From Teichococcus aestuarii (GTDB lineage Bacteria; Pseudomonadota; Alphaproteobacteria; Acetobacterales; Acetobacteraceae): a stretch of 64,000 nt of DNA. The stretch is taken from contig NZ_PDOA01000001.1 in the NCBI RefSeq assembly GCF_003116135.1, positions 62,001-126,000 of the forward strand. Reading direction: 5' to 3'. A model generated the notes under the pieces. The model was given only the letters and a program-made list of their open reading frames with translations, searched no databases and was not told the DNA's origin. Positions within the stretch are counted from its first letter, which is position 1; every line of letters starts with the position of its first letter. Both the position numbers and the translations under genes were made by a program. Below, piece by piece: positions 5,668 to 62,478 of this stretch.

Positions 5668-6300
5668 TCAGCCGAAGGTGCTGAGCAGGTCGTCCACCTG
5701 CGCCGGCGTCAGCTCCCGCGCCGGCATGCCGCGCAGCATCAACGCCAGCTTGGCGGATTCCTCCAGCTCCTCGGCGGTATAGACGGCATCGACCAGCGTC
5801 TTGCCGGAGACCACCGGGCCGTGATTGGCCAGCAGCAGCGCGCGCGCCTCCAGCGCCGCCTGATGCACCGCCGGCTCCATGGCGGAATCGCCGGGGCGGT
5901 AATAGGGCACGATCGGCAGGCGGCGGCCGACGCGCATGACGAAATAGGGCGTCAGCGGCGGGATCGGCGCATCCTCCCCCGGTGCCGCGAGGCAGCCGAT
6001 GGCGGTGGCACAGGTGGAGTGCAGGTGCACCACGGCGCCCGCCTCCGGCCGCGCGGTCAGCACGGCGCGGTGCAGGAACACCTCCTTCGAGGGCTTGTCG
6101 CCACCGAGATGCGACCAGTCCGGCGCCAGCTTGCTGATGCGTGCCGGGTCGAGCCGGCCGAGGGAGGAGTTGGTCGGCGTCATCAGGTAGCCATCGGGCA
6201 GCCGCACGCTGATGTTGCCGGCGCTGCCGACGCTGTAGCCGCGGGCGAAGAGGCTGGCGCCGAGCTCGCAGAGCAGGTCGCGCAGGTCGGATTCAGTCAT
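5668..6300 (-). CDS. otnC: 3-oxo-tetronate 4-phosphate decarboxylase (class II aldolase family)
   Basis: 210 residues, class II aldolase/adducin fold. Zinc-binding histidines are visible in VVHLHSTCATAIG and LLANHGPVV. In the characterised Otn pathway OtnC decarboxylates 3-oxo-tetronate 4-phosphate to DHAP. Family members also include fuculose- and ribulose-phosphate aldolases, but the 4-base ATGA overlap with otnK upstream points to the tetronate pathway. The isomerase OtnI and the dehydrogenases that make 2-oxo-tetronate are not seen nearby. The N-terminus SDLRDLLCELGASLFARGYS is the usual family start. Confidence 0.83.
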   Translation of the reverse strand: MTESDLRDLLCELGASLFARGYSVGSAGNISVRLPDGYLMTPTNSSLGRLDPARISKLAPDWSHLGGDKPSKEVFLHRAVLTARPEAGAVVHLHSTCATAIGCLAAPGEDAPIPPLTPYFVMRVGRRLPIVPYYRPGDSAMEPAVHQAALEARALLLANHGPVVSGKTLVDAVYTAEELEESAKLALMLRGMPARELTPAQVDDLLSTFG

Positions 6301-7565
6301 GCCGTGAACGCCTTCAGGAAGAAATCGCGGGCGCCGAAATTGCCCGATTTGAGCGCGAGGTGCAGGCCGGCCGGCTCCGCCCCCGCCGTTTCGGCATAGG
6401 TCCAGGGCACGCCGGGGTCGATCTGCGGGCCGATGCGCAGCGTGGCGATGCCGAGCCGCTGCACCACCGCGCCCGAGGTCTCGCCGCCCGCCACCACCAG
6501 CCGCCCGACACCGCGCGCGACGAGCGCGGCGGCGATGCGGGCCAGCGCCCTCTCCACCAGCGCGCCCGCCGCCTCGCGGCCGAGCGCCTGCTGCAGCGCC
6601 GCCACCTTCTCCGGCGGGGCGGAGGCGGCGATGACCACGGGCCGCGCCTCGGAGAGCTTCCCCTCCATCCAGGCCTCGGCCTCGGCGAGCAGCGCGGCGG
6701 CGTCGGGCGTGGCCAGCGGGTCCAGCTCCAGCACCGGCACGTGCAGCCGCGCCAGCCCGATCTGCGCCAGCGTGGCGCGCGAGCAGGAGCCGGCCAGCAC
6801 CGCCATGGCGCCGCGCGGCGCGGGCAGGGCGTCGGCGTCCGAGCGGTCGGGCAGCAGGCCCTGGTCGCGGAAATTCTGCGGCAGGCCCATGGCGATGCCG
6901 GAGCCGCCCGTCACCAGCGCATGCCCGGCGCAGGCGCGGCCGAGCGCGTGCAGATGCGCCTCCGTCACCGCGTCGGTGATGGCGTAGCGGCGGCCGCCAT
7001 CGCGCAGCCGGGTGAAGGCCTGGCGGATGGCGGTCTCGCCCTGCTCCACCACGGCGAAGGGCACGAGGCCGACGCCGCCCTCCGTCTGGCGCGAGAGCAC
7101 GCGCACCAGGTTGGCGTCGCGCATCGGCGTCAGCGGGTGGTTCTCCATGCCGCTCTCGCTGAGCAGCGCGGCGCCGACGAAGAGGTGGCCCTGGAACACG
7201 CTGCGCCCATTCGCCGGGAAGGCCGGGCAGGCGATGGCGAAGCCGGATTGCAGCCGCTTCAGCAGCGCATCCGCCACCGGGCCGATATTGCCCGCATCCG
7301 TGCTGTCGAAGGTGGAGCAGTACTTGAGGAAGATCTGCCTCGCGCCGGCGGCGAGCAGCGCCTCGCAGGCGGCGAGGCTCTCGGCCACCGCCTCGGCGGC
7401 CGGCGCGGTGCGCGACTTCAGCGCGACGACGACGGCATCCGCCTCCGGCAGCGGGCCGTGCGGCACGCCGATCACCTGCACCGTCGTCATGCCATGGGCA
7501 ACGAGCATGGCGGCGAGATCGGTGGCGCCTGTGAAATCGTCTGCGATGCAGCCGAGCAACGGCAT
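6297..7565 (-). CDS. otnK: 3-oxo-tetronate kinase (four-carbon acid sugar kinase, DUF1537)
   Basis: 422 residues, normal for the family. The N-terminal domain begins with CIADDFTGATDLAAMLV, the acid-sugar-binding signature, and the C-terminal nucleotide-binding domain has GGETSGAVVQRLG. The enzyme phosphorylates a four-carbon acid sugar with ATP. First gene of the otnK-otnC-mgsA operon; a GAGGAG ribosome-binding site lies about 10 bases before the ATG. The 70-base gap to the methyltransferase gene upstream probably holds its promoter, though none is obvious. Substrate (erythronate- versus threonate-derived) cannot be decided from sequence. Confidence 0.85.
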   Translation of the reverse strand: MPLLGCIADDFTGATDLAAMLVAHGMTTVQVIGVPHGPLPEADAVVVALKSRTAPAAEAVAESLAACEALLAAGARQIFLKYCSTFDSTDAGNIGPVADALLKRLQSGFAIACPAFPANGRSVFQGHLFVGAALLSESGMENHPLTPMRDANLVRVLSRQTEGGVGLVPFAVVEQGETAIRQAFTRLRDGGRRYAITDAVTEAHLHALGRACAGHALVTGGSGIAMGLPQNFRDQGLLPDRSDADALPAPRGAMAVLAGSCSRATLAQIGLARLHVPVLELDPLATPDAAALLAEAEAWMEGKLSEARPVVIAASAPPEKVAALQQALGREAAGALVERALARIAAALVARGVGRLVVAGGETSGAVVQRLGIATLRIGPQIDPGVPWTYAETAGAEPAGLHLALKSGNFGARDFFLKAFTA

Positions 7566-7635: not shown

Positions 7636-8529
7636 TCAGCGCCGCCGCTTCGGCGGCGGCGGCAGGGCCAGGAGGTCGGTGTGGCCGATACGGGCGGAGA
7701 GGCGGCCGCGCATCGCCTGGGCGCGGCGCGCCTCGGCCCAGGCGCGGATGGCGGGGCCATGGCCGCGCGGCAGGGCGGCGAGCGCCGCGCCGGCATGGCC
7801 CTCGGCCAGCGAGTCCGCCATCACCGGCGTGTTGGCGCCGATGATCCACGGGCTCGGCGCGGTGCGGACGGCGAAGCCGCGGGCGCGGAAGGCCGCCGCC
7901 ATGGCCGCCGGCGCCGCGGGGCCAAGCGCCGCGCCACCAAAACCCTTGTCGCGGATCTGGTCGCGGCGGAAGCCGCGCGCCAGCAGCCGGTCGGCCGGGT
8001 GGGAGGGGTAGAAGCCCTCGCGGCCATCGACGTTCAGCGCCGCGTAGAAGGGGATGGCGAGCGCCTCCGCCATGCGCCGCACCCAGCGGCGGGAGACGAG
8101 GTCGCACAGCGCGGTGCTGACGATGCCGTCCGCCTTCTCCAGCGGCAGGGCGCGGGGCCCGGCGGCGAGGTCGGCCACCAGCGCCTCGACGCGCCAGACG
8201 CCCTGCGGCGTGTGGACGAGCAGGGTGGTGTCGCGCGGCCAGGTGGTGGTCCAGCCGGCGAGGATGGCGCGCTCCTCGATGGTGGCGAAGGCGCGCTGCA
8301 GCAGGGCGGGGTCGGCATCCACCAGCGTCCAGTGCTGCGAGCGGCCGAGGATCGGCGCCAGCCAGCGCAGCAGGGAGCCGGTGCCGGCGCCGAGGTCGAG
8401 CAGGTGCGGGCGCGGCGGCAGCGCGTCGGCCAGGGCGAAGGCCAGGTCGGCGCTGCGGGCGCGGGCGTCGAAGGGCTCGCGCAGCGCCAGCCAGTCGCCG
8501 TCGAAGCCCTCGGGGGCGGGGCGGTTCAT
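7636..8529 (-). CDS. Class I SAM-dependent methyltransferase, last gene of the pterin-like cassette
   Basis: 297 residues. The SAM-binding motif I is HLLDLGAGTGSLLRWLAP near residues 42-60, followed by an acidic loop (TLVDADPALL) that would bind the ribose. The rest is poorly conserved to my eye, and the C-terminus ends in a Pro/Lys/Arg-rich tail. The start overlaps the stop of the glycosyltransferase gene by 4 bases (ATGA), so it belongs to the cassette RibD-like, dehydrogenase, QueD-like, GT4, methyltransferase. A role in methylating the cassette product is inference. No signal peptide or membrane segment. Confidence 0.8.
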   Translation of the reverse strand: MNRPAPEGFDGDWLALREPFDARARSADLAFALADALPPRPHLLDLGAGTGSLLRWLAPILGRSQHWTLVDADPALLQRAFATIEERAILAGWTTTWPRDTTLLVHTPQGVWRVEALVADLAAGPRALPLEKADGIVSTALCDLVSRRWVRRMAEALAIPFYAALNVDGREGFYPSHPADRLLARGFRRDQIRDKGFGGAALGPAAPAAMAAAFRARGFAVRTAPSPWIIGANTPVMADSLAEGHAGAALAALPRGHGPAIRAWAEARRAQAMRGRLSARIGHTDLLALPPPPKRRR

Positions 8530-9569
8530 CGGGCAGCCTGCTCCAGCTCGGCGGCGAAGGCGGTGGCGCGGTCGGCCCAGCGCGGCAGGCGCTGCCCGGC
8601 CTCCCAGGCGGCGTCGGCCATCTCGGCGCGCAGCGTGCGGTCGAAGATCGGGCGGCGCATGGCGCGGGAGAGGGCGGCGACATCGCCCGGCGCCGCGATC
8701 ACCCCCGCCGCCTTCGGCACCACGTCGGCGATGGCGCCGCCAGCGGTGATGGCCACGGGCAGGCCGCGCGCCAGCGCCTCGGCCGCCGCCATGCCGTAGC
8801 CTTCCCAGTGGGTGGCCAGGGCGAAAAGGTCGGCGCGGGCGTAGAGCGCGTCCAGCGCCTCCTGCTGCACCTCGCCGGCGAAGGTCACGCGCTGGTCGAT
8901 GCCCAGCTCCCGCGCCAGGGCGGCGAGGCCCTGGGCGTGCACCTTGTCGCGCGCGCCGCCGGCGATGGTCAGGGTCCAGTCGAGGTCGGGCAGGCGGGCC
9001 AGGGCGCGCAGCAGCACGTCATGCCCCTTGCGCGGCACCAGTACCGCCACCGAGAGGATGGCACAGCCGGGGCCGCCCGAGCCTTGCGAGCGCTCCGCCG
9101 GGTCGGTGCCCGGCTCGACCACGCCGATGCGCGCCGGGTCGGCGCCGAATTCCAGCGGCAGCCGGTCGGCGGTGAGGCGGGAGGTGGCGACGAGGCGGGC
9201 GAGCCGCGGGAAGAGCAGCGTCTCGCGCTGGCGCAGCTCCTCGCGCTCCTCCGGCGCGAAGCCGGGCTCGATCGCCGTCGGGTGGTGGATCAGCCCGACC
9301 GCGCCACGCGCCTCCAGCTCGTCGGCGAAGGGGGCGAAGGCGGGCAGGCCCAGCCCGTCGATGATCAGCCGCGTGCCCTCGGGGATGGCGTCCAGCGCGG
9401 CGCGGGCCGAGGCTTGGGCGGCGGCGTCGGGCAGCGGGTGGCGGCCTTCCAGCTCCACCACGCGCACCGCGTGGCCGGCCGCGCGGAAGCCCTGCACCAG
9501 CCGGCGGTCATAGCCATAGCCGCCGGAGATGGCGCTGAAGGGGCCGGGGACGAGAAGGGCGAGGTCCAT
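8526..9569 (-). CDS. GT4-type glycosyltransferase of the pterin-like cassette
   Basis: 347 residues, GT-B fold. The N-terminal domain opens with a Gly-rich loop (PGPFSAISGGYGYDRRL). The C-terminal domain has LSVAVLVPRKGHDVLLRA and the GT4 EX7E motif in HWEGYGMAAAEALARGLP, which binds the nucleotide-sugar diphosphate. The start lies 2 bases downstream of the QueD-like stop. A glycosyltransferase placed between a pterin-synthase homologue and a methyltransferase, far from any polysaccharide locus, suggests it glycosylates a small molecule rather than lipid or envelope; that is inference. Sugar donor unknown. Confidence 0.82.
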   Translation of the reverse strand: MDLALLVPGPFSAISGGYGYDRRLVQGFRAAGHAVRVVELEGRHPLPDAAAQASARAALDAIPEGTRLIIDGLGLPAFAPFADELEARGAVGLIHHPTAIEPGFAPEEREELRQRETLLFPRLARLVATSRLTADRLPLEFGADPARIGVVEPGTDPAERSQGSGGPGCAILSVAVLVPRKGHDVLLRALARLPDLDWTLTIAGGARDKVHAQGLAALARELGIDQRVTFAGEVQQEALDALYARADLFALATHWEGYGMAAAEALARGLPVAITAGGAIADVVPKAAGVIAAPGDVAALSRAMRRPIFDRTLRAEMADAAWEAGQRLPRWADRATAFAAELEQAAR

Positions 9570-9571
9570 CG

Positions 9572-9970
9572 TCAGACCGCGGCCTCGTAGGCGGCCCAGG
9601 CCAGCGGGCTCTCGCGCAGCAGCACCTTGATGGCCTCCACCTTGCGGCCGCTCTCGCCGAGCCGGCCATCCTTCACCGCCGCGCCGAGCCGGCCGTGGAT
9701 GTGCTGGCAGAGGAATTCCGTGCTGGTGTTCTGCCCGGCGAATTCGGGCACCGTGTCGAGGTTGCGGTAGTCGATCGCGTCCAGGATGCGGCGCAGCTCG
9801 ACGCGGGCGGCGGCGATGTCCACCAGCAGGTTCGACGCGTCCAGCCGGGCGGCGCGGAACTCGGCCTCCACCACGAAGGTGGCGCCGTGCACGCGCTGTG
9901 CCGGGCCGAATTCCTCGCCGCGGAAGCTGTGGGCGACCATGATGTGGTCGGCGACCGTCAGGCTGAACAT
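9572..9970 (-). CDS. Divergent 6-pyruvoyl-tetrahydropterin synthase / QueD homologue
   Basis: 132 residues, the normal length for the fold. The family outline is clear: an N-terminal His (AHSF, His14), the HG turn at His28 (VHGATFVV), the VDIAAAR segment matching the canonical DF/DL strand, NTSTEF matching PTSE, and a terminal Glu in LLRESPLAWAAYEA that would anchor the pterin ring. It differs from classical QueD: the HGH zinc motif is HGA, so the third zinc ligand is Ala30, the catalytic Cys just before it is absent (Gln25 region), and the DHxxLN motif reads DYRNLD. It is therefore probably a separate subfamily with altered chemistry. It overlaps the dehydrogenase gene by 13 bases. Confidence 0.8.
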   Translation of the reverse strand: MFSLTVADHIMVAHSFRGEEFGPAQRVHGATFVVEAEFRAARLDASNLLVDIAAARVELRRILDAIDYRNLDTVPEFAGQNTSTEFLCQHIHGRLGAAVKDGRLGESGRKVEAIKVLLRESPLAWAAYEAAV

Positions 9971-10989
9971 GCGCGGGTCAATCCTTGCTCTGGGGCGGCT
10001 GGCGCGGCGGCGCCGTAGGTGATGACGGGGCAGAGTGGCGCCGGATGGCCGGGCGGCGGCGGCGCCAGCAGCGCCGCCATGCAGGCCGGCAGCGCCTCGA
10101 ACGGCACGCGCGGCCCCACCAGCGCGTCCAGCACCGGGTCGGCCAGCAGGGAGAGGGCCAGCGCCATGCGCTCGGCATGGCTGCGGCGGCCGCGCATGGC
10201 GGGGGAGACGCTGCCCACCTGGCTGGAGCGCAGCGTCAGGCGGCGGGCGTGGAAGGCCTCGCCCAGGGGGAGGGAGACGCTGCGGTCGCCATACCAGGAG
10301 GCCTCGACGATGCGCGCCTCCATCGCCGCAAGCGTGAGCGCGGCGCGCAGCCCTTCCGGGCTGGCCGAGGCGTGCAGGATCAGCTCCTGCTCGGGCGGCG
10401 CCTGCTCCGGCAGGGCGAAGCGCGCGCCCAGCGCCTCGGCCACGACGCGGCGCGCCGGGTCGGTGTCCTGCACCGTGACGCACGTGCCGGGGAAGCGGCC
10501 GATGAGCCAGGCGCAGAGCAGCCCGACCACGCCGGCGCCGATCACCAGCACGCGCTCGCCGGGGATGGGCGCCGCGTCCCAGACGATGTTCAGCGCCGTC
10601 TCCATGTTGGCGGCCAGCACGGCGCGGTGGTCCGGCACCGCATCCGGCACGGGGCTGCACATCCCGGCCGGGGCCAGGAAGCGGTCCTGGTGCGGGTGCA
10701 GGCAGAAGACGCGGCGGCCCCGCAGGGCGGCCGGCCCTTCCTCCACCACCGCCACGGCGGCGTAGCCGTACTTGACGGGGAAGGGGAACTCGCCCTCCTG
10801 CAGCGGCGCGCGCATGGCCTGCCACTGGCTCTCCGGCACGCGGCCATGCAGCACCAGCCGCTCCGTGCCGCGCGAGACGCCGCTGGCGAGGGCGCGCAGC
10901 AGCGCCTCCTCCGGCCCGCGCGGCGGCAGGGTCTCGGCGCGGATCTCCCCCTGGCCGGGCGCCGTGGCCCAGAAGGCGCGCGCCCTCAT
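9958..10989 (-). CDS. BchC-like medium-chain dehydrogenase of the pterin-like cassette
   Basis: 343 residues, MDR (alcohol dehydrogenase-like) fold. The N-terminal half has SGVSRGTERLVLHGRVP, closely recalling BchC of bacteriochlorophyll synthesis, and lacks the Cys and His ligands of a catalytic zinc. The Rossmann motif is VLVIGAGVVGLLCAW, with an Asp (QDTD) that favours NAD over NADP. No bch or puf genes are in the window, so a bacteriochlorophyll role is not supported. It shares 4 bases (ATGA) with the RibD-like gene upstream and 13 bases with the QueD-like gene downstream. The substrate is probably an intermediate of the same cassette. Confidence 0.78.
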   Translation of the reverse strand: MRARAFWATAPGQGEIRAETLPPRGPEEALLRALASGVSRGTERLVLHGRVPESQWQAMRAPLQEGEFPFPVKYGYAAVAVVEEGPAALRGRRVFCLHPHQDRFLAPAGMCSPVPDAVPDHRAVLAANMETALNIVWDAAPIPGERVLVIGAGVVGLLCAWLIGRFPGTCVTVQDTDPARRVVAEALGARFALPEQAPPEQELILHASASPEGLRAALTLAAMEARIVEASWYGDRSVSLPLGEAFHARRLTLRSSQVGSVSPAMRGRRSHAERMALALSLLADPVLDALVGPRVPFEALPACMAALLAPPPPGHPAPLCPVITYGAAAPAAPEQGLTRACSA

Positions 10990-11843
10990 GGCGCCGCCGG
11001 CTCCGGCGGCTGTCCCGGCGCGGTGCAGACGGGGGTGCAGACGGCGGGGCGGGCGCGGTGCAGCGCGATGTCGAACAGCACGTCCTCGCCCAGGCTGTGC
11101 ACCGCCCAGGTGAAGCGCAGCCCGTCGGCAATGCGCGCCGCCTCGGGCAGGGTGAAGGCGGGGATGCCGGAGCCGAGCAGCACCGGCGCCACCGTCACGT
11201 GCAGCCGGTCCAGGCAGCCGGCGGCGAGGAAGCGGGAGACGGTGAGGCCGCCGCCCTCGACGAAGAGCCGCCGCAGCCCGCGCGCCGCCAGCAGCGGCAG
11301 CAGGGCGCGGAGATCGAGCCCGCCGATGGCGGCACGCGGCGCGCGCAGCACCTCGGCGGCGCCGTGCCGGTCGCTGCCGCCGGCATCCTCGGCGCAGACC
11401 AGCAGGGTGGGCGGGCCACCGGGGGCGAACAGGCCATAGCCGGTGCCGAGGCGCCGGTCCGTGTCCAGCACCACGCGCACCGGGCTGGGGCCGGGCACGG
11501 CGCGGGTGGTCAGGCGCGGGTCGTCGTGCCGCACCGTGCCGGCGCCGACCACCACCGCGTCGCTCAGCGCGCGCAGCCGGTGGGTGTGGGTGATGTCCCC
11601 CGCGCCGCCGATCCACTGGCTGGAGCCGGAGGCGGTGGCGATGCGCCCGTCCAGCGTCTGCGCCAGCCGCCCCAGCACCAGGCAGCCATCCGGCGCGCCG
11701 GGCGGGGCCAGCAGCGGGGCGAAGAGCGCCGCGTGGGGGTTGCCCTCCGGCACCGCGCCGCCGGCCGCGCGCTGGCGCAGCAGGGCTTCCCAGAAAGGGT
11801 CCGGCGGGACGGGGGCGGGGGCTTCGGGGGCGGTGGGGTGCAT
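10986..11843 (-). CDS. RibD C-terminal-type reductase, first gene of the pterin-like cassette
   Basis: 285 residues. The family is the RibD reductase half (dihydrofolate-reductase fold): GRLAQTLDGRIATASG, GAGTVRHDDPRLTTR for the pyrimidine-ribityl site and LFVEGGGLTVSRFL for NADPH. The deaminase half of RibD is missing; in its place is about 50 poorly conserved residues. In riboflavin synthesis this domain reduces the ribosyl group of a diaminopyrimidine phosphate derived from GTP. Stand-alone copies inside non-riboflavin operons suggest reduction of a related substrate. It opens the five-gene cassette, 116 bases after yhhQ on the same strand, so co-transcription with the queuosine genes is possible. 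Confidence 0.82.
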   Translation of the reverse strand: MHPTAPEAPAPVPPDPFWEALLRQRAAGGAVPEGNPHAALFAPLLAPPGAPDGCLVLGRLAQTLDGRIATASGSSQWIGGAGDITHTHRLRALSDAVVVGAGTVRHDDPRLTTRAVPGPSPVRVVLDTDRRLGTGYGLFAPGGPPTLLVCAEDAGGSDRHGAAEVLRAPRAAIGGLDLRALLPLLAARGLRRLFVEGGGLTVSRFLAAGCLDRLHVTVAPVLLGSGIPAFTLPEAARIADGLRFTWAVHSLGEDVLFDIALHRARPAVCTPVCTAPGQPPEPAAP

Positions 11844-11959: not shown

Positions 11960-12532
11960 TCAGGCGGGCTGTATGCCGCGGCGCGCATCGGCGCGGCGCA
12001 GCCAGGCGGCGAAGGGCAGGGCCAGCAGCACCATCCACAGCTTGCCCAGCACCTGCCCCGGCAGGTAGCCCAGGTCGCCGAAGGCGATGCCGAGGAAGAA
12101 CACGCTGTCCACCACCAGCCCGACCAGGCTGGAGGCCAGCACCGCCAGCACCAGGTTGCGCCGCTGCAGCGGCGTGTAGACCAGCAGGTCCGCCGTCTCG
12201 CTGAGCAGGAAGGCGGCGGCGGAGGCCAGCACCAGGGCGGGCGGCGCCAGAAGGGCGGAGATGGCGGTGCCGGCGGCGATCGCCAGCCAGGCGGGGGTCA
12301 GGCCGAGCCGGCGCTGCACCAGGTCCCGCAGCACCAGGGCGAGGCCGATCATCAGCACGCCGGAGGGGGCCATGACGCCGGGCGCCACCGGAATCAGGCA
12401 GGGGCCCTGCGGCACGCAGACGGTGCCGGCATGGCCGATCAGCCAGTTCGCGGCGGGGATGGTGAGCCCGAAGGCGATGAGGGCCGCGAACCCCTCGATG
12501 CGGCGCGTGTCGGTCATCTGCGAGTTTTCCAT
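11960..12532 (-). CDS. yhhQ: Queuosine precursor transporter (YhhQ/VUT family, DUF165)
   Basis: 190 residues with about six hydrophobic helices (for example FAALIAFGLTIPAANWL, GVLMIGLALVLRDLVQ and LVLAVLASSLVGLVVDSVFF). The RDLVQRRLG and DS..F residues in helices are characteristic of the family. The characterised members import preQ0/preQ1 through the inner membrane. It starts 33 bases after queC on the same strand, supporting the assignment. The first ATG (12532) lacks a clear ribosome-binding site; the ATG at 12517, five codons in, has a weak GGAA and may be the true start. Confidence 0.85.
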   Translation of the reverse strand: MENSQMTDTRRIEGFAALIAFGLTIPAANWLIGHAGTVCVPQGPCLIPVAPGVMAPSGVLMIGLALVLRDLVQRRLGLTPAWLAIAAGTAISALLAPPALVLASAAAFLLSETADLLVYTPLQRRNLVLAVLASSLVGLVVDSVFFLGIAFGDLGYLPGQVLGKLWMVLLALPFAAWLRRADARRGIQPA

Positions 12533-13326: not shown

Positions 13327-13641
13327 TCAGAACAGGCTGAACAGGCCCTTATCCTGCCGCTCGGCGCGCACCAGCAGGCGGGCCTGCTCGGCGGCGAAGG
13401 CGCGGCGCGCCTGCTGGCCGGGCATGGTGATGTTGCGCCGGCGGCACCACTCCTTGAACGGCTCCGGCCGCACGGCGATGCGGATGACGCGGTAGCCCTC
13501 GCCCATCGCCCGCGTCACATCCTGCTGCGCGCCGGAGAGCCAGTCATCGTAGTGCTCGCTCATGTCCGGCATGAAGTTGCGCAGGGCGTCGAAGGATTGC
13601 TGGTCGTACCAGGCGAAGCCCATGATCGGCTTGTCGCTCAT
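13327..13641 (-). CDS. Conserved-looking small protein of unknown function
   Basis: 104 residues, not recognised. It is soluble, with no signal peptide or membrane segment. It starts [23 protein letters not shown] and contains two Trp ([14 protein letters not shown]) and many charged residues; the C-terminal half is helical and basic. It sits alone between queC (71 bases downstream) and queG (165 bases upstream). Its ribosome-binding site AGAGG lies 7 bases before the ATG, inside the 3-prime arm of a 9-bp stem, so translation looks regulated by RNA structure. Codon use resembles the neighbours. Real gene likely; function unknown. Confidence 0.65.
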
Positions 13642-61765: not shown

Positions 61766-62478
61766 TCCGGGTGGTCCTCCTCGAAGGGCGTCGCGGCACG
61801 GCCACGGAGCACGATATCGAACCGGTAGCCCAGCGCGTGGTTCGGCTGGGTGATGCCGAGGTCGAAGCGCGCCACGAGCCGCTCCCGCGCGGCGGCATCG
61901 GGCGTCGCGTTGAAGATGGGGTCGAGCGGCAGCAGCGGGTCGCCGGGGAAGTACATCTGGGTGATCAGCCGCTGCGCGAAGCCGGCGCCGAACAGGCTGT
62001 AGTGGATGTGCACCGGGCGCCAGGCATTGTGGTGGTTGCCCCACGGGTAGGCGCCGGGGCGGATGGTGGTGTAGCGGTACCAGCCTTCCTCGTCGGTGAA
62101 CACCCGCGCCTGGCCGGAGAAATGCGGATCGAGCGGCGCGTCGTGCGTGTCGCCCGGGTGGGCGTAGCGGCCGGCGGCGTTGGCCTGCCAGATCTCCAGC
62201 ATGGTGCCGCGGAGCGGGCGGCCATCCTCGTCCAGCACCCGGCCGGCGACAATGATGCGCTCGCCCACCGCCTCGCCGCCGGCATGGCGCGTCATGTCGG
62301 GCATCGGCGCGTAGAGGGCCGGGCTCATCGCCGGCGCGGTGGTCTCGGTGGGGCCGTGCGGCACGCGCAGCAGCGGGCGCACGGGGTGGCGCAGCCGCGT
62401 GCTGCCGTAATCCGGCACGTCGTAGCCCGGCTGGGTGCCGGGCCGGGGCCGGCGGTAGCCGGCCGGGCTTTCGGTCAT
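61762..62478 (-). CDS. pcaH: Protocatechuate 3,4-dioxygenase, beta subunit
   Basis: 238 residues. The non-haem iron(III) ligands are visible: two Tyr in WYRYTTIRPGAYPWGN and two His in VHIHYSLFG. LEIWQANAAGRYAHPGD is the family-typical strand. Iron-containing beta chain of the dioxygenase. ATGA overlaps on both sides (pcaL upstream, pcaG downstream) show one operon. Confidence 0.95.
   Translation of the reverse strand: MTESPAGYRRPRPGTQPGYDVPDYGSTRLRHPVRPLLRVPHGPTETTAPAMSPALYAPMPDMTRHAGGEAVGERIIVAGRVLDEDGRPLRGTMLEIWQANAAGRYAHPGDTHDAPLDPHFSGQARVFTDEEGWYRYTTIRPGAYPWGNHHNAWRPVHIHYSLFGAGFAQRLITQMYFPGDPLLPLDPIFNATPDAAARERLVARFDLGITQPNHALGYRFDIVLRGRAATPFEEDHPE

Follow-up and report, generated by a model that had tools for sequence, protein, structure and literature searches.

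Proteins of COG0720 that carry an FGPAQ signature were named PTPS-IV (cluster-node 62) in the AGeNNT paper, the available text of which reports neighbours of the families PF01872 (RibD_C) and PF00925, the latter described as FolE2 (PMC5445326). Our analysis concerns a five-gene cassette of Teichococcus aestuarii that contains such a protein, and which lies in a stretch of 64,000 nucleotides (positions 62,001 to 126,000 of contig NZ_PDOA01000001.1, assembly GCF_003116135.1; here, the window) on contig C19 of a 5.2-Mb genome. The cassette shares with the published description the FGPAQ signature and a RibD_C neighbour, and is part of the published PTPS-IV neighbourhood, with the genome's PF00925 genes being found on other contigs and such a gene lying near the unit in 46 of the 148 loci considered below. 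It should be noted that Pfam's own name for PF00925 is GTP cyclohydrolase II, so that the chemistry to be expected is of the riboflavin rather than the folate type. The available text of PMC5445326 makes no mention of a dehydrogenase, a glycosyltransferase, a methyltransferase, a phosphotransferase or a product. The wider gene set, a correlation between one cyclohydrolase tyrosine and a creatininase gene, and an association with phosphotransferase and flippase-like genes are not described in the open-access literature that we found. We propose, with a probability of about 0.58, that the five genes are the core of a dedicated pathway leading from 2,5-diamino-6-ribosylamino-4(3H)-pyrimidinone 5'-phosphate (DARoPP), the GTP cyclohydrolase II product, to a glycosylated, methylated and perhaps pterin-like compound.

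Other described systems resemble parts of this unit. A profile of the PTPS-IV family matched the solved structure 3d7j (SCO6650 of Streptomyces coelicolor) at 6.5e-61, making SCO6650 a clear family member, with other PTPS/QueD structures matching at 1e-8 or worse. SCO6650 reportedly contains no zinc and shows no PTPS activity, with a pterin-type binding site being kept, and S. coelicolor SCO6655 is said to stop at the formamide. In the accessible part of PMC2853524, SCO6655 is listed as a GTP cyclohydrolase II. The gap of five gene numbers between the two fits the gene order in other Streptomyces. In contrast to clusters of this type, the window unit has no cyclohydrolase, creatininase, phosphotransferase or flippase-like gene. 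Cyanobacterial and Chlorobium routes to pterin glycosides run through GTP cyclohydrolase I, a PTPS that is active and sepiapterin reductase, none of which is among the five genes. As with those glycosides (PMC5683033), a PTPS-like protein and a glycosyltransferase could yield a sugar-bearing pterin here too. Archaeal ArfA, ArfB and ArfC and bacterial BrbF, as described in the accessible portion of PMC9478397, are matched by the altered cyclohydrolase and creatininase-family partner of actinomycete clusters, of which 7 of 23 also have a RibD_C reductase. Relative to that route, the unit adds PTPS-IV, a dehydrogenase of the medium-chain dehydrogenase/reductase (MDR) superfamily, a GT4 glycosyltransferase and a methyltransferase, and has neither a deaminase nor a lumazine synthase. 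Our literature search for the product or the gene set found neither in the open PMC library, a result that we do not extend to all of print, as other papers on SCO6650 and SCO6655 did not turn up in that library. The available parts of a 2026 pterin review (PMC13259868) and of a paper on 8-azaguanine (PMC7109123) do not mention the unit.

A conserved five-gene unit

The initial annotation described five minus-strand genes joined by a 2-base gap and overlaps of 4 to 13 bases, and this was confirmed. Reading from 11843 to 7636, the order is RibD_C, MDR, PTPS-like, GT4 and methyltransferase, with spacings of -4, -13, +2 and -4 bases. When the PTPS-like protein was used as query against 385 genomes of the same class, 46 matched (45 at 2.4e-29 or better, one at 7e-6). 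Excluding the window's own, the 44 strong loci hold the MDR gene near PTPS-IV in 43 cases, GT4 in 42, the methyltransferase in 38 and RibD_C in 35, where it should be considered that some retrieved stretches end at contig ends, such that partner counts cover only what the stretch holds. In a phylum-level sample, 29 of 398 genomes matched; four of these (G000, G028, G107 and G189) were already in the first set and the remaining 25 loci were held out from profile building. Among the 23 strong held-out loci, the profiles found MDR in all 23, GT4 in 22, the methyltransferase in 21, RibD_C in 20 and all five genes in 17. As a control, 16 regions around canonical PTPS paralogues of carrier genomes (three shortened by contig ends, and with the third PTPS of G060 left out) contained no MDR, GT4, methyltransferase or RibD_C gene of the cassette types, and one held a RibA match. 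Neither of the two weak held-out loci has the cassette, the only partner-like hit being a GT4-type match of 39 bits at a distance of some 8 kb. The PTPS proteins of these loci (L261 and L262), at about 60 bits, fall between PTPS-IV and the canonical forms, do not carry FGPAQ and possibly represent another PTPS subfamily.

A pattern scan of contigs from one-per-species genomes yielded at least 589 stretches with a PTPS-IV relative, of which the 80 best-scoring, pattern-selected stretches were kept. These best 80 come from Acetobacteraceae, Streptomyces, Amycolatopsis, Actinomadura, Gemmatimonadota and others, with the nearest named loci belonging to Roseomonas and Pseudoroseomonas. Taken together, the samples give 148 strong loci, a number that counts one genome twice (L145 and L037 share contig start coordinates and were taken as identical) and leaves out L076, L261 and L262, where the PTPS is weak and the cassette absent. 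The MDR gene is present in 145 of the 148, GT4 in 141, the methyltransferase in 126 and RibD_C in 112. Although contig ends truncate many of the stretches, all five genes occur in 94 loci, in 93 of them within 6 kb, which is the co-occurrence that the initial annotation proposed looking for; the four core genes other than RibD_C occur in 123, within 6 kb in 122. Accessory genes include a CDP-alcohol phosphotransferase (56 loci), a GTP cyclohydrolase II-type gene (46), LPG_synthase_TM (37), creatininase (35), an FkbM methyltransferase (19), YceI (18) and a sulfatase-type gene (18). Protein distances of the four partners track those of PTPS-IV (Mantel r 0.72-0.84, with shuffles reaching at most 0.204), although this test cannot tell co-inheritance from shared phylogeny. 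The counts in the class-sample, held-out, control and 148-locus sets rule out a chance row of unrelated genes, and the five genes act as one unit, as the initial annotation supposed. Its mention of similar neighbourhoods in other alphaproteobacteria was too narrow, as carriers also include other proteobacterial classes, actinomycetes and Gemmatimonadota, with genomes of as little as 1.4 Mb in the same class at one end and Streptomyces at the other. Within the family, every one of 17 genomes examined from this genus (the window's among them) has the gene, as do 8 of 17 from other genera, while five further family members from the class and phylum samples do not carry it.

A search of plasmids gave a match in 20 of 72,556 records, four of which (L263-L266) were inspected. 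Plasmid pOB3b1 of Methylosinus trichosporium OB3b carries MDR, PTPS, GT4 and RibD genes, with a hypothetical protein at the methyltransferase position, and pTs417 of Candidatus Thiodictyon syntrophicum carries the five genes together with a CDP-alcohol phosphotransferase and cytochrome b. On Streptomyces fungicidicus p1, phosphotransferase, MDR, PTPS, GT4, methyltransferase, creatininase and RibA genes were found, with no RibD in the stretch shown. All four inspected records label the PTPS-type protein as 6-carboxytetrahydropterin synthase in RefSeq, with a queuosine GO term.

The PTPS-IV protein itself has a replaced active site. The window protein reads FGPAQRVHGA, and FGPAQ is present in 143 of the 148 strong loci. 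The third zinc-ligand position of the HGH motif is Ala (HGA) in the window and in 125 of 125 aligned members, of which 80 were pattern-selected with one of the patterns including HGA; in an alignment of 31 members, none of them pattern-selected, H28, G29, A30 and A24 are likewise invariant. At the catalytic Cys position, the window protein has Ala, as do 124 of the aligned members, the remaining one having Ser. Taking the PTPS triad to be Cys-Asp-His, the position of its His holds Tyr, Phe or Leu in all 125, and Tyr in the window. In contrast to these replacements, Glu85 and Glu120 are kept in 125 of 125, and a Thr or Ser at 82-84 in nearly all. The PTPS-I/QueD motif CxxxHGH is absent from the window protein, which scored 41.8 bits against a QueD cut-off of 89.25, and the PTPS-II and PTPS-III motifs (CxxxxxHGH and ExxHGH) are absent from it and from the 125 aligned members. 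As both zinc-ligand and catalytic positions are replaced, the window protein is not QueD, and the loss of a zinc ligand and of the catalytic Cys noted in the initial annotation holds for the family as a whole.

The proposed pathway and its weak points

Besides the RibD_C protein of the cassette, the genome encodes one more, on contig C41. A profile of its family matched 6p8c (5e-46) and 2azn (1e-40) best among solved structures, the former carrying the name 2,5-diamino-6-ribosylamino-pyrimidinone phosphate reductase. It has the features of the ArfC/RED type, namely a RibD_C domain without a deaminase and closest solved members of that name, although it scored 98 bits against the NCBIfam model rib_reduct_arch, below the cut-off of 186. 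It is a predicted 2,5-diamino-6-ribosylamino-pyrimidinone 5'-phosphate reductase. RibD_C and dihydrofolate reductase share a fold superfamily, but action on DARoPP is favoured over action on a dihydropterin because the protein is close to solved diaminopyrimidine reductases. The bifunctional riboflavin enzyme was ruled out by a score of 109.5 bits against a cut-off of 156.35, by the other RibD gene in the genome and by the lack of a deaminase domain according to Pfam, the latter as read in the initial annotation. Its view that the RibD_C and QueD-like proteins both differ from the housekeeping enzymes is supported.

The dehydrogenase had been called BchC-like, a likeness that proved weak: it amounts to MDR similarity at 45 bits against a cut-off of 291, with a Pfam match below threshold, and a role as bacteriochlorophyllide dehydrogenase was rejected. 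Its structural model (pLDDT 93.7) gave best Foldseek matches that include RspB and sorbitol, butanediol, idonate and other alcohol dehydrogenases, which would suit a polyol side chain. The methyltransferase, whose Methyltransf_25 match covers residues 44-87 only, gave a model (pLDDT 96.2) that matched many class I methyltransferases with no informative neighbour. For both models, the Foldseek searches thus returned broad superfamilies and named no substrate.

In the proposed pathway, GTP would be converted to DARoPP (step 1) by an ordinary RibA in proteobacteria and, in actinomycetes, by the joint action of a variant RibA that goes no further than the formamide and a creatininase-family deformylase. 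RibD_C would reduce the ribose side chain to a ribityl chain, as archaeal ArfC does, with the guanine-like 2-amino group being kept (step 2). The MDR dehydrogenase would then oxidise a side-chain hydroxyl, and the zinc-less PTPS-IV would bind the 2-amino-4-oxo head group via the kept glutamate and might favour a ring closure, or else a rearrangement, that yields a pterin-like bicycle (step 3). Finally, a sugar would be added by GT4 (step 4) and a methyl group by the methyltransferase (step 5). What our data show directly is the conservation of the unit, the replaced active site, the partner genes and the family of each protein. We infer steps 1, 2, 4 and 5 from these families, whereas step 3 and the pterin nature of the product are speculative. 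Of the glycosylated, methylated pterin- or lumazine-like product suggested in the initial annotation, the sugar and methyl transfer are implied by the presence of GT4 and the methyltransferase, while for lumazine, no lumazine synthase is found among the five genes (the surroundings of related units were not searched for one). Overall, the idea of such a pathway is strengthened relative to that earlier reading.

The proposed riboflavin-type input is reflected in the cyclohydrolases near the units. The residue aligned with Tyr105 of 2bz0 is Met in 11, His in 7, Tyr in 23 and unreadable in 5. All 18 copies with Met or His are actinomycete and all 18 are accompanied by a creatininase gene, as opposed to 9 of the 23 that keep Tyr. 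Replacement of Tyr105, as in SCO6655, is assumed here to halt the cyclohydrolase reaction. In Sinorhizobium meliloti, an enzyme annotated as creatininase strips formate from the formamide intermediate, which yields DARoPP, with the function of more distant homologues being left open in the available text (PMC9478397), and the cluster creatininase-family protein is possibly also deformylating. GTP cyclohydrolase genes of type II, whose presence nearby the initial annotation suggested checking, are thus found in part of the loci, while this genome's copies lie on other contigs (Table 1) and its RibA keeps the Tyr.

Several points weigh against the proposed pathway and need to be considered. RibD_C was not found in the retrieved stretch of 16 of 23 actinomycete loci, and so may be non-obligatory or encoded elsewhere. 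Substrates of the MDR, GT4 and methyltransferase proteins are guesses from broad superfamilies, and reducing and then oxidising one side chain seems superfluous compared with an Amadori rearrangement, which is simple. The cluster creatininases score best with mycofactocin MftE, match the archaeal ArfB model weakly or not at all, and belong to a family with several functions. In none of the 49 Acetobacteraceae/Rhodospirillales-type loci, the window included, does the retrieved stretch contain RibA or creatininase (the group was assigned by record title, with four metagenome-assembled genomes titled only Proteobacteria counted in); in this genome, the RibA copy on another contig (L174) would have to provide the precursor. 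As for the unit itself, 11 of the 148 loci, several of them at contig ends, hold fewer than three of the four partners. In L075, a full-length stretch, an FGPAQ protein has only the dehydrogenase of the unit nearby, in opposite direction, which is possibly a broken or rearranged cassette. The plasmid locus L266, from Streptomyces anthocyanicus, holds a PTPS-IV relative without the cassette, amid MEKHLA, cupin and MBL-fold genes.

Alternative explanations

The accessory genes suggest another possibility, which we consider unlikely, namely a membrane-lipid pathway in which the CDP-alcohol phosphotransferase links a pterin or pyrimidine head to a phosphatidyl unit, a sugar and a methyl group are added, and an LPG-synthase-like membrane protein flips the molecule to the outside, with Acetobacteraceae having a reduced soluble version or unlinked enzymes. 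Indeed, what we take to be the catalytic motif is present in 55 of the 56 phosphotransferases, 38 of 44 lie within 300 bases of a core gene, and of the 37 loci with LPG_synthase_TM, 35 also have the phosphotransferase, with 26 of 26 LPG_synthase_TM genes lying within 300 bases of a core gene. Both genes are found in actinomycetes (22 of 23 each), Gemmatimonadota (4 of 5 each) and held-out loci of other phylum classes (11 of 11 for the phosphotransferase and 10 of 11 for LPG_synthase_TM), and the phosphotransferase also in other proteobacterial loci (3 of 3, against 0 of 3 for LPG_synthase_TM); YceI-type and sulfatase-type genes add to this picture. However, in the class sample the phosphotransferase is found in only 15 of 45 stretches and LPG_synthase_TM in none of the 45, and neither occurs in any of the 49 Acetobacteraceae/Rhodospirillales-type loci. 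This genome has three CDP-alcohol phosphotransferase genes, none of which comes closer to a cluster-type query than 30% over 115 residues (1e-4), one of the three queries used (from L135) having proved to be an FkbM-type protein. LPG_synthase_TM proteins, moreover, have many roles. The cluster phosphotransferase has no sequence match among solved structures at E 0.01 and no NCBIfam family at 1e-5. Being limited to certain lineages, the two genes would extend the pathway there rather than define it. A more far-reaching form of this idea, and one that we regard as quite unlikely, is a new class of molecules: a membrane-anchored, sugar-bearing, methylated pterin or diaminopyrimidine, built from a riboflavin precursor with a zinc-less T-fold enzyme catalysing a new reaction, linked via a polyol-phosphate side chain to a phosphatidyl group by the cluster's own CDP-alcohol phosphotransferase, and flipped to serve as redox or signalling lipid of the outer leaflet. 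Compact cassettes such as that of the window would then be a soluble form or have unlinked enzymes for the lipid steps.

Queuosine, F420 and riboflavin synthesis are all disfavoured. That the QueD-like gene makes 6-carboxytetrahydropterin for the neighbouring que genes, with the other four as passengers or deazapurine modifiers, is very unlikely, even though the cassette lies 116 bases from a transporter gene followed by the queC-queA run, the genome has no other PTPS match, and RefSeq gives such proteins the queuosine name, which is most likely a misannotation. Two carriers, G229 (L221) and G348 (L220), do have QueC and QueE matches and no PTPS other than PTPS-IV, and no short open frame with HGH, HGA or HGY lies beside their queC/queE, which points to some substitute for QueD or to moonlighting by PTPS-IV. 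However, que query genes occur in only 2 of the 80 retrieved loci (L080 and L084), the class sample gave one QueG match near the unit (L047), and the zinc-ligand and triad positions are replaced. Of the 45 carriers, 29 have no other PTPS, and in 21 of the 29 a QueC match, if any, is no better than 1e-6, while all 16 with a further PTPS have QueC, so that the further PTPS is probably their QueD. A preQ0 role, for which QueC and QueE would be expected in carriers, is not borne out either: QueC better than 1e-30 is found in 24 of 45, this genome included, and this genome has no QueE match, whereas five of five dual-PTPS controls do. Given the rare que adjacency, the lack of QueC in most PTPS-IV-only carriers and of QueE in this genome, and the replaced positions, a queuosine role was rejected, and the adjacency in the window looks incidental.

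For F420, the pyrimidine precursor comes via RibA and RibD_C, which near the unit would supply it, and CofD-family genes are found in 9 of the 45 carriers; two of these, G246 and G326, have the gene on the contig that bears the unit, no more than about 7 kb from it. A CofD-family match alone is no proof of F420, since the family also matches in E. coli, and the other 36 carriers, this genome included, have none, on which ground the role was rejected. To our knowledge, F420 synthesis requires no GT4 or methyltransferase of this kind. It was stated, citing unpublished work, that PTPS-IV is involved in archaeal F420 synthesis (PMC5041015, in the part available), but this remark perhaps refers to a different, archaeal subfamily, and we hold an F420 role to be extremely improbable. 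A further alternative is another branch of riboflavin synthesis, or flavin secretion, through the second RibD reductase. Riboflavin synthesis does use RibA, RibD_C and a creatininase homologue that removes the formamide; yet neither lumazine synthase nor riboflavin synthase is encoded by the five genes, C41 carries another RibD_C gene with a RibB-RibA fusion gene about 1.4 kb away, and we know of no PTPS, MDR, GT4 or methyltransferase in riboflavin synthesis, to which these proteins would be foreign. Although duplicate riboflavin modules have been proposed in S. meliloti (PMC9478397, in its accessible portion), such a role is highly unlikely here.

Genomic setting and significance

The features discussed are collected in Table 1. 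Besides the cassette, the window holds Vut_1, QueC, QueG, QueF, Tgt and QueA, yet the genome has no canonical QueD and no QueE match, the latter being likewise missing in two genomes of the same genus and one of the same family. The QueC of this genome may have its role in salvaging a deazaguanine taken up from outside, for instance 7-carboxy-7-deazaguanine (CDG). A gene of 104 amino acids between queC and queG is kept at 56-63% identity in L080 and L084. On the other side of the cassette, otnK/otnC are found near it in many Acetobacteraceae (OtnK match in 41 of 80 loci, OtnC in 32 of 80), which probably reflects lineage-specific synteny.

Table 1 Positions of the cassette genes, their neighbours and cyclohydrolase genes elsewhere in the genome (window coordinates unless a locus is given; aa, amino acids; SAM, S-adenosylmethionine).
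Feature	Position	Strand	Size	Location	Basis
RibD_C-type reductase without deaminase domain	10986..11843	-	285 aa	cassette	Pfam RibD_C 5.2e-38
MDR-superfamily dehydrogenase, distant from BchC	9958..10989	-	343 aa	cassette	NCBIfam bchC 45.2 bits, cut-off 291.25
PTPS-IV (FGPAQ) T-fold protein, zinc site and catalytic residues replaced	9572..9970	-	132 aa	cassette	Pfam PTPS 5.6e-22
GT4-family glycosyltransferase	8526..9569	-	347 aa	cassette	Pfam Glycos_transf_1 1.2e-30
Class I SAM-dependent methyltransferase	7636..8529	-	297 aa	cassette	Pfam Methyltransf_25 5.7e-6
Vut_1 transporter gene	11960-12532			upstream of cassette	Pfam
queC-to-queA run	up to 17561			upstream of cassette	QueC by Pfam; queG, queF, tgt, queA named by eye from translations
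Gene between queC and queG	13327-13641		104 aa		no Pfam/NCBIfam match
otnK/otnC, tetronate breakdown	5668-7565			downstream of cassette	NCBIfam
RibA, long N-terminal extension, Tyr kept	L174:1538-2827			other contig	
DHBP synthase fused to divergent cyclohydrolase half	L168:8961-10076				
GTP_CH_N-type protein	L175:6443-7741				

With regard to the pathway proposed here, the unit would mark a widespread pathway with a product still to be found, and the dehydrogenase in 145 of 148 strong loci, together with at least 589 relative-bearing stretches, is the footprint of a widely useful metabolite. As the input is likely a riboflavin-type pyrimidine and the tailoring steps are likely ones, the product can be searched for in laboratory strains by labelling and mass spectrometry. 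With one structure in the PDB, the PTPS-IV family provides a T-fold active site in which to work out its chemistry.

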